Below, in pieces: positions 6,092 through 10,120 of a stretch of DNA of 64,000 nucleotides; position 1 is the first letter of the stretch; every line of letters starts with the position of its first letter. This DNA comes from Acuticoccus sp. MNP-M23. Lineage in GTDB: Bacteria; Pseudomonadota; Alphaproteobacteria; Rhizobiales; Amorphaceae. The DNA lies in NCBI RefSeq assembly GCF_031195445.1, contig NZ_CP133480.1, forward strand, positions 3,526,501 to 3,590,500. The letters are read 5' to 3'. The notes beneath the pieces are model-generated. The model saw only the letters and a program-made list of their open reading frames with translations. It was not told the DNA's origin and did not search any database. The position numbers and the translations under genes are program-made.

Positions 6092-6983
6092 GCCCATTCT
6101 CATCGCCGGTCCGACCGCTTCGGGCAAGTCCGCGCTGGCAATGGCGCTGGCGGCGCGGCTGGGCGGCGTGGTCATCAATGCCGATTCCATGCAGGTTTAT
6201 GGCGACCTTGCGATCCTGACCGCCCGCCCGTCCCCTGCCGATGAGGCGCGCGTGCCCCACGCGCTCTACGGCCACGTGGACGCTGCCACCGCCCACTCCG
6301 TCGCCGCTTTTCTCTCAGATGTGGCGGGGGCACTGGCCGCAGCCCGCGAGCGCGGCCAGCGCCCCGTCATCGTCGGCGGCACGGGGCTTTATCTGGCAGC
6401 ACTGACCGAGGGTCTGTCGCCCACGCCGCAGGTCCCGGCAGACGTGCGCGCGCTCTGGCGCCAGCGCCAGAAAGAGGCGCCGAGCGAGGCGCTCCATGCC
6501 GAGCTTGCCCGTCGCGATCCGCCGATGGCCGCACGCCTCAACCCCGGCGACCCTCAGCGGATCGTTCGCGCGCTGGAAGTGGTGGACGGCACCGGCCGGT
6601 CGCTGCTGGAATTTCAGGCCGAGAAAAGCCCGCCGCTGGTTGACCCCGCGGCGTCGACGAGAATCGTCCTCGCGCCCGACCGCACCGTTTTGCGCGCCCG
6701 CATCGCGGCCCGGTTCGAGGCGATGATGGCATCCGGCGCGCTGGCGGAAGCGGCAACCCTTGCGGCCCGCGGGCTGGACCCGGCGCTGCCTTCGATGAAG
6801 GCGATCGGCGTTGCGCCCCTCATCGCCCATGCCGCCGGTGCACTCACCGCCGAAGAAGTCATGGCCCGCGCCATCACCGAAAGCCGCCAGTACGCCAAGC
6901 GGCAGGACACCTGGTTCCGCAACCGCTTTCGAGACTGGCCGCGGTACGAAAGCGCCGATGCGGCCGCCGATCAGGCGATCTGA
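6084..6983 (+). CDS. miaA: tRNA dimethylallyltransferase MiaA
   Basis: A 299-residue enzyme that transfers a dimethylallyl group to N6 of A37 in tRNAs reading UNN codons. The P-loop GPTASGKS is at residues 9-16, followed by the substrate motif DADSMQVY-like (seen as NADSMQVY) and GGTGLYL. The C-terminal RQDTWFRNR is the typical tRNA-binding end. The ATG at 6084 gives MSMPILIAGP; a second ATG at 6090 is also possible. Both lie at or within a few bases of the divergent serB start at 6091. The family is usually about 300 residues, so the gene appears complete. The next gene on this strand is the ilvB leader, over 300 bases away, so this is probably a single-gene unit. Confidence 0.93.
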   Translation: MSMPILIAGPTASGKSALAMALAARLGGVVINADSMQVYGDLAILTARPSPADEARVPHALYGHVDAATAHSVAAFLSDVAGALAAARERGQRPVIVGGTGLYLAALTEGLSPTPQVPADVRALWRQRQKEAPSEALHAELARRDPPMAARLNPGDPQRIVRALEVVDGTGRSLLEFQAEKSPPLVDPAASTRIVLAPDRTVLRARIAARFEAMMASGALAEAATLAARGLDPALPSMKAIGVAPLIAHAAGALTAEEVMARAITESRQYAKRQDTWFRNRFRDWPRYESADAAADQAI

Positions 6984-7287
6984 AAAGGCCTTCAGCGCGG
7001 CTCAAGATTCTCGGAAACACGTGGCCTGATTGCGCCGCAATCTGCTGGTGCACGGCTTGGCGGGTATCGGAACCTGCGCAAAGCGGCAGCCCTGCGGCAT
7101 TACCATCGGCCAGCAAGGCGCGGGCGCAGGCGCGCGCGACTCCGAAGCCATCGGTACATTCGGGAGCAGCCGGCTATGCGCCGGCAAGGCACGCCCGCCG
7201 CTTCTGGTGGTGAAGTTGTGCCAAAAGAGGATTGCGCGGCGGGGCAGGGCATGCTAACCGCTCCTGATCAAACTGACGGGCAAGCAC
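6984..7287. other. Intergenic region upstream of the ilv leader
   Basis: No convincing coding sequence is seen. Short open frames exist on both strands, but none has family features or a ribosome site. A perfect 15-base palindrome GATTGCGCCGCAATC lies at 7028-7042. A weak promoter-like pair, TTGCGC at 7232-7237 and TAACCG at 7255-7260 with a 17-base spacer, could start the ilvB leader transcript about 20 bases before the leader ATG. The promoter call is only a guess. Confidence 0.4.
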
Positions 7288-7338
7288 ATGGCCACGAAGC
7301 TTATTATCGTAGTAAGGCGCATCATCGGGGTCTGTTGA
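7288..7338 (+). CDS. Branched-chain amino acid leader peptide of the ilv operon
   Basis: A 16-codon frame, MATKLIIVVRRIIGVC, ends in TGA 134 bases before ilvB. Eight of its 16 residues are Leu, Ile or Val, in the runs LIIVV, II and V. This is the hallmark of leader peptides that sense branched-chain aminoacyl-tRNA. Its last codons lie in the 5' arm of a stable hairpin (7328-7346) and it is followed by a terminator (7372-7393) just before ilvB. No strong ribosome site is visible, only ACGGG upstream. That a ribosome stalling at these codons would switch the downstream RNA fold is inference from the classic attenuation mechanism of ilv, leu and ilvB operons. The peptide itself would have no function beyond sensing. 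Confidence 0.85.
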   Translation: MATKLIIVVRRIIGVC

Positions 7339-7393
7339 CCAGACCCGGAAACGATGATGCGCGGAAAATTTAAGGCCCTCTGGGGCCTTTTTT
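7328..7393 (+). promoter_or_regulatory. Transcription attenuator of ilvB (pause hairpin plus terminator)
   Basis: Three RNA elements are readable. First, a 7-bp hairpin has arms GGGTCTG (7328-7334) and CAGACCC (7340-7346), with the leader stop codon in its loop. Second, a 7-bp terminator hairpin has arms AAGGCCC (7372-7378) and GGGCCTT (7383-7389), and a run of six T at 7388-7393. Third, a possible antiterminator: CCAGA at 7339-7343, mostly the 3' arm of the first hairpin, is complementary to TCTGG at 7379-7383 in the terminator loop and 3' arm. Stalling on the Ile/Val codons would free that segment. The pairing is short (5 bp), so the exact switch needs a folding calculation. Confidence 0.75.
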
Positions 7394-7472
7394 GTTGCCC
7401 GCTCTCCGACTGAACCTTGAGCGGGTCCGATGGGAACACCGCTTGGAAAATGGCGGTTCGGGAGACACCACA

Positions 7473-9254
7473 ATGGACGAGCGCAACAACGGCCGCATGA
7501 GCGGTGCGCAAATGATCATCGAGGCGCTGAAGGATCACGGCGTCGACACCATCTTCGGGTATCCGGGCGGGGCCGTCCTCCCCATCTACGACGAGATCTT
7601 CCAGCAGGACTTCGTGCGCCACATCCTGGTCCGGCACGAGCAGGGCGCCGGCCACATGGCCGAAGGCTATGCCCGCTCCACCGGCCGCCCCGGCGTCATG
7701 CTGGTCACCTCCGGTCCCGGCGCCACCAACGCCGTCACCGCGCTGACCGACGCGATGATGGATTCCATCCCGCTTGTCTGCATCACCGGCCAGGTCCCGA
7801 CCCACCTCATCGGCTCCGATGCGTTCCAGGAATGCGACACGGTCGGCATCACGCGCCCCTGCACCAAGCACAACTGGCTGGTCCGCCGGGTCGAGGACCT
7901 GCCGCGCATCCTGCATGAAGCATTCTACGTCGCGACGTCCGGCCGCCCCGGCCCCGTCGTCATCGACGTGCCGAAGGACGTGCAGATCGCAACAGGGCTC
8001 TACAACCCGCCCCGCGGCACGCGCCACAAGACCTACCAGCCCAAGATCGAGCCGGAGATGGCGGGCATCCGCCAGGCGGTTGCGCTGATGAAGGCCGCAA
8101 GCCGCCCGGTCTTCTACACCGGCGGCGGTCTCATCAACGCCGGCCCGGCAGCCTCGCACCTGCTCAGGGAGCTGGCGGACATGACGGGCTTTCCCGTCAC
8201 CTCCACGCTGATGGGCCTTGGCGCGCTGCCGGCGACCCACCCGCAGTGGCTGGGGATGCTTGGCATGCATGGCACCTACGAGGCCAACCTCGCGATGCAC
8301 GGCTGCGACCTCCTCATCAACATCGGCGCCCGCTTCGATGACCGGATCACCGGCCGCATCGACGCGTTCTCCCCCGGCAGCCGCAAGATCCACATCGACA
8401 TCGACCCCTCGTCGATCAACAAGTCGGTCAAGGTGGATCTGCCGATCATCGGCGATGCAGCCCACGCCATGGAAGACATCATCCGCGTCTGGTCCGAGAA
8501 CGGGCCGCACGACAAGGCGCGCCTCAAGCCGTGGTGGGACGACATCAACACCTGGCGGGCGAAAAAGTCTCTCGGCTACAAGACCCGGCCCGGCACCATC
8601 ATGCCGCAGGAATCGGTCGAGCGCCTTTACGAGCTGACGAAGGACAAGGACACCTACGTCACGACAGACGTGGGCCAGCACCAGATGTGGGCCGCCCAGT
8701 TCTTCGGCTTCGACAAGCCCAACCGCTGGATGACCTCCGGCGGTCTCGGCACCATGGGCTACGGCCTGCCGGCTGCCATCGGCACCCAGATTGCGCATCC
8801 GGACTCGCTGGTTCTGTGCATTGCAGGCGACGCGTCGATCCAGATGAACATCCAGGAGCTGTCGACGGCGGTTCAGTACGACCTGCCGGTGAAGGTGTTC
8901 ATCATGAACAACCAGTACATGGGCATGGTGCGCCAGTGGCAGCAGCTCAACCACGGCAACCGCCACTCGCACTCCTACTCCGAGGCGCTGCCGGACTTCG
9001 TGAAGCTGGCCGAAGCCTATGGCGTGAAGGGCATGGCGGTTTCCGACCCGGACAAGCTGGACGCTGCCATCGAGGAGATGATCGCGCACAAGGGGCCGGT
9101 GGTGATGGATTGCCGCATCGCCAACCTCACCAACTGCTTCCCGATGATCCCGTCGGGCAAGGCGCACAACGAGATCCTCCTCACCCCCGAGGACGATCTG
9201 CAGGCCGAGCAGGTGGAGAACGCGATCGACGAGGTGGGCTCGGCGCTGGTCTGA
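7473..9254 (+). CDS. ilvB: Acetolactate synthase large subunit
   Basis: A 593-residue thiamine-diphosphate enzyme that makes acetolactate and acetohydroxybutyrate, the first common step of Ile, Leu and Val synthesis. The N-terminal domain has IFGYPGGAVLPIYD and the catalytic Glu in VRHEQGAGHMAEGYAR. The FAD-type central domain covers about residues 200-340. The C-terminal TPP motif GDASIQMN runs to the NNQYMGMVRQWQ region. The start at 7473 has GGAG eight bases upstream and follows the attenuator; the open frame extends to 7392 but that part overlaps the terminator. The DUF167 gene begins 4 bases after its stop, then ilvN, so this is a three-gene operon under leader-peptide control. Confidence 0.97.
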   Translation: MDERNNGRMSGAQMIIEALKDHGVDTIFGYPGGAVLPIYDEIFQQDFVRHILVRHEQGAGHMAEGYARSTGRPGVMLVTSGPGATNAVTALTDAMMDSIPLVCITGQVPTHLIGSDAFQECDTVGITRPCTKHNWLVRRVEDLPRILHEAFYVATSGRPGPVVIDVPKDVQIATGLYNPPRGTRHKTYQPKIEPEMAGIRQAVALMKAASRPVFYTGGGLINAGPAASHLLRELADMTGFPVTSTLMGLGALPATHPQWLGMLGMHGTYEANLAMHGCDLLINIGARFDDRITGRIDAFSPGSRKIHIDIDPSSINKSVKVDLPIIGDAAHAMEDIIRVWSENGPHDKARLKPWWDDINTWRAKKSLGYKTRPGTIMPQESVERLYELTKDKDTYVTTDVGQHQMWAAQFFGFDKPNRWMTSGGLGTMGYGLPAAIGTQIAHPDSLVLCIAGDASIQMNIQELSTAVQYDLPVKVFIMNNQYMGMVRQWQQLNHGNRHSHSYSEALPDFVKLAEAYGVKGMAVSDPDKLDAAIEEMIAHKGPVVMDCRIANLTNCFPMIPSGKAHNEILLTPEDDLQAEQVENAIDEVGSALV

Positions 9255-9257
9255 GCC

Positions 9258-9578
9258 ATGACCGGCGCGGACTGGCTGCGGGTGGGCGAGGGGGAAATCA
9301 CCCTTTCCGTGCGCGTCACGCCCAATGCCAGGGCTGACGCGTTCGCCGGCATCCGCGAGGGGGCCGGCGGGCCCGCCCTCAGCCTCAAGGTGCGCGCGGT
9401 GCCCGAAGACGGCCGCGCCAACCGCGCCGTCACCGCCCTCATCGCCAAGCGCCTGAAAGTGCCGAAAAGCGACGTCACCGTTGCGTCCGGCACCACCTCC
9501 CGTCTCAAACTGATCAAGATTGCCGGCGATGCGGCCCAGTTGTGCGCCCGCGCGGCAGACCTAGGAAACGACCCATGA
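9258..9578 (+). CDS. DUF167 (YggU-like) family protein
   Basis: A 106-residue protein with the DUF167 core: VRVTPNARADAFAGI, then LKVRAVPEDGRANRAVTALIAKRLKVPKSDVTVASGTTSRLKLIKI. The family is small, widespread and of unknown biochemical function; in many alphaproteobacteria it sits near a YggT membrane protein. Here it lies between ilvB and ilvN. It starts 4 bases after the ilvB stop, and its own TGA overlaps the ilvN ATG (ATGA at 9575-9578). It must therefore be co-transcribed, and probably co-translated, with the acetolactate synthase subunits. Size and motif content are normal for the family. A role in the pathway is not implied by sequence alone. Confidence 0.9.
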   Translation: MTGADWLRVGEGEITLSVRVTPNARADAFAGIREGAGGPALSLKVRAVPEDGRANRAVTALIAKRLKVPKSDVTVASGTTSRLKLIKIAGDAAQLCARAADLGNDP

Positions 9579-10120
9579 ACCAGCCCATCGGCATCGCCCC
9601 CGCCCTTCGCCCCGAAGAGGCACAGGAGCGGCACACCCTATCGGTCCTCGTCGACAACGAGCCCGGCGTCCTTGCCCGCGTCATCGGCCTGTTTTCGGGC
9701 CGCGGCTACAACATCGATTCCCTCACCGTGTCGGAGACCGAGCACGAGCGCAGCCTGTCGCGCATCACCATCGTGACCACCGGCACGCCGATGGTGGTCG
9801 AGCAGATCAAGCATCAGCTCGCCCGTCTCGTCCCGGTCCACCGCGTCGCCGACCTCACCACCGACAGCCGCGACGCCATCGAGCGCGAGCTGGCGCTGGT
9901 AAAAGTGTCCGGCCGCGGCGAGCAGCGGCTCGAAGCGCTGCGCCTGGCGCAGGCATTCGACGCCAACACCATCGACGCGACGTTGGAAAGTTTCGTGTTC
10001 GAGGTGACCGGCGCGACGGGGGACATCGAGCGCTTCGTGCGGCTGATGGCCTCGGTCGGGATGGTCGAGGTGTCGCGCACGGGAATTGCGGCGATCACGC
10101 GGGGCAGCGAGGCGACCTGA
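9575..10120 (+). CDS. ilvN: Acetolactate synthase regulatory small subunit
   Basis: A 181-residue regulatory subunit that binds valine and activates IlvB. The N-terminal ACT domain (HTLSVLVDNEPGVLARVIGLF, then RGYNIDSLTV) spans about residues 22-95, followed by the small-subunit C-terminal domain to about 175. An ATG overlaps the stop of the preceding DUF167 gene. The start at 9575 was chosen over 9542 because it gives the usual MNQ-like beginning and the coupling overlap. Its stop codon lies inside the first copy of a 31-bp tandem repeat, and a strong terminator follows about 140 bases later, so the operon ends here. ilvC is not in the window. Confidence 0.95.
   Translation: MNQPIGIAPALRPEEAQERHTLSVLVDNEPGVLARVIGLFSGRGYNIDSLTVSETEHERSLSRITIVTTGTPMVVEQIKHQLARLVPVHRVADLTTDSRDAIERELALVKVSGRGEQRLEALRLAQAFDANTIDATLESFVFEVTGATGDIERFVRLMASVGMVEVSRTGIAAITRGSEAT

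Follow-up and report, generated by a model that had tools for sequence, protein, structure and literature searches.

An ilvB-DUF167-ilvN gene cluster with a compact leader lies near the start of the 64,000-nucleotide stretch of Acuticoccus sp. MNP-M23 DNA analyzed here (hereafter, the window). The features discussed below are as follows.

7232-7257, + strand: promoter-like boxes TTGCGC (7232-7237) and TGCTAA (7252-7257), a putative assignment from a genus alignment read by eye
7284-7403, + strand: match to Rfam family RF02502 (Atu_C8), 50.3 bits against a gathering cut-off of 50, covering all 122 model positions
7288-7338, + strand: leader peptide ORF, MATKLIIVVRRIIGVC* (ORF translation; leaders like it precede ilvB in 99 of 177 regions scanned)
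7300-7314, + strand: control codons CTT ATT ATC GTA GTA (L I I V V), from the sequence and from GTA/CTT/ATT enrichment in 45 homologs
7317-7362, + strand: S1:S2 hairpin of 18 bp, stop codon in the apical loop at 7335-7339 (RNAfold; swap test z -18.7)
7372-7393, + strand: intrinsic terminator AAGGCCC-TCTG-GGGCCTT plus T tract (terminator scan; T5:T3 swap test z -9.7)
7473-9254, + strand: ilvB, acetolactate synthase large subunit (PF02776, PF00205, PF02775)
9258-9578, + strand: gene of the DUF167 (YggU) family, flanked by ilvB and ilvN (PF02594, 81.3 bits)
9575-10120, + strand: ilvN/ilvH, small subunit of acetolactate synthase, sharing 4 nt with the DUF167 gene (PF10369, PF22629)

A preliminary description of this DNA had read from its letters a 16-residue leader peptide with eight Leu, Ile or Val residues, a hairpin holding the leader's stop codon, and a terminator with a T tract. 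Each of these parts is present. Translation of the ORF gives the 16 residues of MATKLIIVVRRIIGVC, eight of them L, I or V. RNAfold of 7317-7364 places an outer stem (7317-7327 with 7352-7362) below an inner one (7328-7334 with 7340-7346), and the stop codon, 7336-7338, falls inside the apical loop. The predicted stability of this hairpin, -31.2 kcal/mol, corresponds to z -6.7 and was equaled in none of 200 shuffles. The terminator stem occupies 7372-7389 and is followed by a six-T tract at 7388-7393; on its own it is unremarkable, since the single terminator-like site in 6900-7600 compares with 0.9 in shuffles. A consensus scan of 6900-7600 returned no sigma-70 match. By eye, TTGC[GA]C followed by TGNTA stands ahead of the ATG in seven of eight aligned genus sequences, which suggests a candidate promoter. 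The control codons of the window are also able to fold as a 7-bp hairpin of their own (7300-7316, CTTATTA-TCG-TAGTAAG; RNAfold).

The arrangement as a whole is not a product of chance. We defined it as a terminator together with an ORF containing at least 4 L, I or V residues in 5 codons, with its stop codon 25-85 nt before the T tract. Dinucleotide shuffling of the region upstream of ilvB in the window never produced it (0 of 5000), shuffling of 177 ilvB upstream regions did so 5 times in 3540, and none of the 177 reverse strands carried it; a chance origin in the window is excluded. A second scan with tighter lengths recovered similar leaders in 99 of these 177 regions, some of which come from the same species present in two collections. 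Dropping 5 duplicates left 94 unique homologs, and in all 94 of them 8 or more base pairs close around the stop codon. The leader frame is thus conserved in relatives; its absence from them had been named in the preliminary description as grounds for giving up the attenuator.

The same element is already known under another name. At 50.3 bits and full length, the covariance-model score lies just above the cut-off of 50, so the window's leader counts as a member of RF02502. A search of 61 genomes, that of the window plus 60 relatives, gave matches to this model in 32, spread over 23 of 52 families of the order; matches exceed the cut-off in 10 of the 61. An IlvB homolog lies directly downstream of the match in every one of the 30 loci fetched, among them that of the window, and 28 of these 30 carry a leader (at least 4 Leu, Ile or Val in 5 codons) plus terminator by a scan independent of Rfam. 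Among 10 named ilvB loci, one per genus, a match stands just upstream of ilvB in 6, and the score is below the cut-off in 4. In the loci seen here, the RF02502 family, typed by Rfam as an sRNA gene of Rhizobiales, is the ilvB operon leader, and we read the RNA itself as its terminated form, which may still also act as an sRNA. One genome (G031) has two copies (C1049 and C1559), each preceding an ilvB-type gene whose products are 60% and 70% identical to the window's IlvB.

Beyond the Rfam matches, leader and terminator stand upstream of ilvB in 63 of 80 named ilvB loci; these were the top-ranking 80 of at least 592 by IlvB, mostly Rhizobiales/Hyphomicrobiales, and are therefore biased toward relatives of the window's IlvB. 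The count falls to 7 of 27 additional ilvB loci from within the order (of which G037 and G044 have RF02502 matches and G061 lay outside the RF02502 search) and to 1 of 40 ilvB loci from other orders, where two upstream pieces were merely 49 and 70 nt long. By this criterion 20 of the 27 loci within the order are without the element, indicating that the operon can manage without an attenuator.

The gene between ilvB and ilvN has a narrower distribution. Within the genus, 7 of 8 genomes carry a DUF167 match about 2 kb downstream of the RF02502 match on the same strand, and the gene lies elsewhere than the ilv operon in two sister-genus genomes. With tblastn at E 1e-4, DUF167 had no match in the 80 named ilvB loci (the best 80 of at least 592). 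As far as sampled, DUF167 joins the ilv operon only in the window's genus, so that the earlier placement of this gene in the operon holds for the window and its genus and does not extend to the 80 ilvB loci of other taxa. Judged by its position, the DUF167 gene would share whatever control the leader exerts.

Codon choice sets the control run apart from the gene that follows. In the 45 homologs for which ilvB sequence was in hand, GTA encodes 52 of 78 Val residues of the control part (67%), against 2.3% of 1799 Val codons in ilvB. CTT likewise accounts for 33 of 65 Leu codons (7.6% of 1750 in ilvB) and ATT for 40 of 68 Ile codons (16.9% of 1609 in ilvB). Fisher p-values are about 8e-56 for GTA, 7e-19 for CTT and 4e-14 for ATT, with ilvB counts rebuilt from percentages, and they overstate independence because the homologs share ancestry. 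The preference is not simply A+T richness, since GTT (3%) and CTA (5%) are not favored in the control part and GTA drops to 3 of 31 after the run. The 42 tRNA genes found in the window's genome include one each of tRNA-Val UAC, CAC and GAC and one tRNA-Leu GAG; tRNA-Ile was absent among these 42. The choice of control codons is a subject of selective-charging theory (PMC1183508), and the available account of the Corynebacterium glutamicum ilvBNC leader, from another phylum, lists the same rare control codons, CUU and GUA (PMC11857589). Unlike the Rhizobiales leaders, ilvL, ivbL and leuL of E. coli contain no GTA: Val codons in ilvL and ivbL are GTG or GTC, while ilvL has CTT twice and ATT four times.

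The locus combines a conserved LIIVV leader run, an intrinsic terminator before the first gene, and cognate ilvB and ilvN genes downstream. Taken with the chance controls and the coevolving helices described below, the conservation of leader and terminator bears out the earlier proposal of a branched-chain attenuator before ilvB. We conclude, from comparative sequence analysis, that this is very probably a ribosome-mediated transcription attenuator of the ilvB-DUF167-ilvN operon that permits read-through when Leu, Ile or Val is short. While charged Leu, Ile and Val tRNAs are plentiful, the ribosome would reach the stop codon and leave, and transcription would terminate at the T tract. The leader RNA so released, roughly 120 nt long, would correspond to the RNA named Atu_C8 by Rfam. 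When one of the three amino acids is short, the ribosome would instead halt on the control codons and RNA polymerase would read through into ilvB.

Such control has precedent in this class of bacteria. The ilvBN operon of Caulobacter crescentus, likewise an alphaproteobacterium, is reported to be controlled by attenuation through a leader that places tandem Ile and Val codons ahead of a Rho-independent terminator, a design that resembles the present one as described (Tarleton et al. 1994, in PMC4117421). Predicted attenuators include, by their descriptions, an "ilvB leader peptide" in alphaproteobacteria, a feature shared with the window (Vitreschak et al. 2004, cited in PMC1273637), and an "ilvIH cis regulatory" element in Sinorhizobium meliloti (Vitreschak et al. 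2004, cited in PMC2573895). E. coli ilvL and ivbL have in common with the window a leader peptide, Leu/Ile/Val control codons and a terminator before AHAS genes. ilvB attenuation is therefore already known in alphaproteobacteria; it is the communication between its parts that looks unusual here.

How a halted ribosome would lead to read-through is the step on which two readings differ; as both concern that step only, the confidence placed in them does not sum to one with that in the attenuator itself. The first, a doubtful but possible one in our estimation, is the textbook arrangement, in which the ribosome masks S1 and S2 pairs with T5, the 5' arm of the terminator. It includes the variant put forward in the preliminary description, where CCAGA and TCTGG couple the two hairpins. 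Those letters are indeed present (7339-7343 and 7379-7383), but the coupling is unsupported. The 5-bp complement occurs in the window only, in 0 of 7 congeners; no pair in it has changed on both sides; and the S2:T5 duplex in the window (the stop-to-terminator segment with the terminator 5' arm) amounts to just -2.1 kcal/mol. Given its absence from the congeners and the lack of a pair changed on both sides, it is not the switch. Across the genus alignment 83.9% of scored cells of this link pair, many by G-U, with 9 gap cells set aside. The same alignment contains three outer-stem pairs of S1:S2 changed on both sides, a count that does not rise above shuffles (100 of 500 reach 3), whereas its covariation score does (0 of 500 reach it); both the pair count and the score include the CCAGA/TCTGG link.

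For pairing across the wider family we relied on a swap test, in which the pairing of a segment with its native partner is compared with its pairing to partners drawn from the remaining homologs, applied to 51 divergent sequences left from the 94 after thinning by similarity. Two helices are plainly detected, S1:S2 (z -18.7) and T5:T3 (z -9.7). In contrast, S2:T5 antiterminator pairing gave no signal in the same 51 sequences (z +0.6) or in three subsets of them (z +0.4, -0.5 and +1.0). In the 51 homologs S1:T5 was likewise silent (z +0.7), as was T5 paired against the 40 nt upstream of the start codon (z +0.7). The S2 end gave no signal with the U tract and the bases after it either (z +1.3). 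The window's S1:T5 duplex, at -11.1 kcal/mol, is close to the -10.8 kcal/mol that swapped partners average. Moreover, the 18 nt before T5, which form the S2 end, pair with T5 less well than do swapped partners (z +3.4, 2000 of 2000 permutations). As a positive control, gammaproteobacterial his leaders yielded an S2:T5 signal (z -2.5, 8/2000) with just 9 sequences, a sample in which S1:S2 itself was not significant (z -1.4). These derive from 20 of 21 matches over the cut-off that were fetched, of which 17 of 20 regions were used and then 9 of the 17. Strong S2:T5 duplexes do exist in some members of the family, with 7 of 51 at -10.0 kcal/mol or beyond, in keeping with the textbook reading.

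Folding as a function of ribosome position bears on the same question. The equilibrium probability of the terminator was rejected as a test, having displayed no clear switch in 6 of 7 E. coli attenuators (in ivbL it dips to just 0.69). Being blind to most E. coli attenuators, it was replaced by a nascent-transcript measure: the transcript is folded just before the 3' arm of the terminator emerges, with the ribosome covering 12 nt from the start of the A-site codon, and the share of T5 held by upstream RNA is recorded for each ribosome position. In E. coli thr, leu, trp, his, ilvL, ivbL and phe, sequestration of T5 is 0.47-0.90 with the ribosome in the control run and 0.00-0.07 with it at the stop codon, except for his (0.68). 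ilvL and ivbL span 0.47-0.77 in their control runs and do not exceed 0.07 at the stop, unlike the window, where sequestration is 0.09-0.31 along the control run and 0.31 with the ribosome at the stop. In the 94 homologs mean sequestration is 0.11-0.23 while the ribosome is on any of the four codons leading up to the final control codon, 0.39 on that codon, and 0.46-0.53 beyond. The nascent-RNA profile of the ilvB leaders is thus unlike that of the seven E. coli attenuators, on a measure that is imperfect in being high also when no ribosome is present (ilvL 0.75, ivbL 0.56, family mean 0.46). In the window, the pairing of S2 with T5 that marks a 2:3 antiterminator was not found with the ribosome on the control codons.

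The climb from 0.11-0.18 to 0.39-0.53 once the ribosome arrives at the last control codon and moves beyond it would fit S2:T5 pairing. However, sequestration is low on the control codons, precisely where the seven E. coli attenuators are high, and with the ribosome at the stop codon it is as high as past the last control codon. A classical 2:3 antiterminator of E. coli type is thus not visible in our tests, although competition between the helices may be kinetic and so could escape them.

We speculate, with somewhat less confidence still, that the Rhizobiales ilvB attenuator belongs to a class without an RNA antiterminator, in which a ribosome halted on rare GTA, CTT or ATT codons, at the foot of S1:S2, blocks the folding of T5 directly. 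If true, this would account for S2:T5 pairing being both absent and disfavored. The low sequestration of T5 while the ribosome is on the control codons is consistent with it, as are the short spacers. From control run to S1 these measure 4.5 +/- 2.5 nt in 51 homologs (2 nt in the window) and from S2 to T5 4.0 +/- 1.9 nt (9 nt in the window), while the stop codon lies a median of 31 nt from T5 (range 22-44, 94 homologs). Folding out S1:S2 would take about 49 nt off the path and leave a halted ribosome some 9 nt of single strand short of the terminator (an average; 11 nt in the window), as against about 31 nt for one at the stop.

Distances of this order matter for termination in E. coli. The pyrBI terminator is suppressed by a moving ribosome. 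Measurements summarized in one account put the efficiency of a terminator 17 bp from the stop codon at only about 0.12 in one series, and that of terminators beyond 30 bp at about 0.9 in both series; the same source describes direct suppression of the pyrBI terminator by a nearby ribosome, the precedent for the occlusion envisaged here (PMC4824070). Coupled ribosomes and intrinsic terminators are also the subject of a review (PMC7858274). The likeness has its bounds: the pyrBI terminator is described as lying inside the leader gene (PMC4824070), whereas here the halted ribosome would be upstream with a hairpin in between, and that hairpin might prevent the blocking. A halted ribosome would also cover a few S1 bases, opening the foot of the hairpin. 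Finally, the folded path is not clearly constant across homologs. It averages 36.4 +/- 3.0 nt, compared with 85.4 +/- 3.7 for the linear one, and its correlation with hairpin length is -0.58. By a different route again, the C. glutamicum ilvBNC leader is modeled, in the description available, with terminator, antiterminator and anti-antiterminator hairpins, unlike the window (PMC11857589).

It is also conceivable, but very unlikely, that the terminated leader RNA or its peptide acts in trans and that attenuation in cis is minor. Rfam's typing of RF02502 as an sRNA gene would agree with this, and in S. meliloti both the RNA and the peptide of the trp attenuator are reported to work in trans (PMC7298713, PMC10117765); the linkage to ilvB in 30 of 30 loci, the control codons and the terminator are nevertheless all explained by control in cis. 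The idea of a chance ORF beside an ordinary terminator is contradicted by the shuffle and strand controls, the conservation and the coevolution, and deserves practically no credence.

The bases that follow the T tract (7394-7401, RTTGCCYG) are conserved in the 51 divergent homologs and the consensus is missing from 12 other terminators in these loci. Two candidate pairing partners were rejected: S1, for which z values of -3.4 and -2.6 among 12 comparisons were accompanied by no position that held up, and a downstream hairpin, with z -2.5 in one of three windows and 21 of 47 sequences paired. As the E. coli leu and his attenuator terminators have similar bases, we left RTTGCCYG as terminator context. 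In the genus, the post-terminator bases begin a further hairpin (7396-7427, CCCGCTC...GAGCGGG) that is not general in the family.

Among the openly available papers listed in literature searches, titles and the opening lines of abstracts contain no mention of a link between Atu_C8 and the ilvB leader, of a missing antiterminator, or of codon choice in Rhizobiales ilv leaders. The present analysis connects the ilvB leader with a family filed by Rfam as an "sRNA" and finds the textbook antiterminator invisible in homologs where the other two helices plainly show. With Val as GTA, Leu as CTT and Ile as ATT strongly preferred, and GTT and CTA not, these leaders form a natural data set for control-codon theory. 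If the ribosome does block the terminator directly, pairing between S2 and the terminator would be selected against, and the hairpin that encloses the stop codon would serve as a path-shortener, not as a protector.
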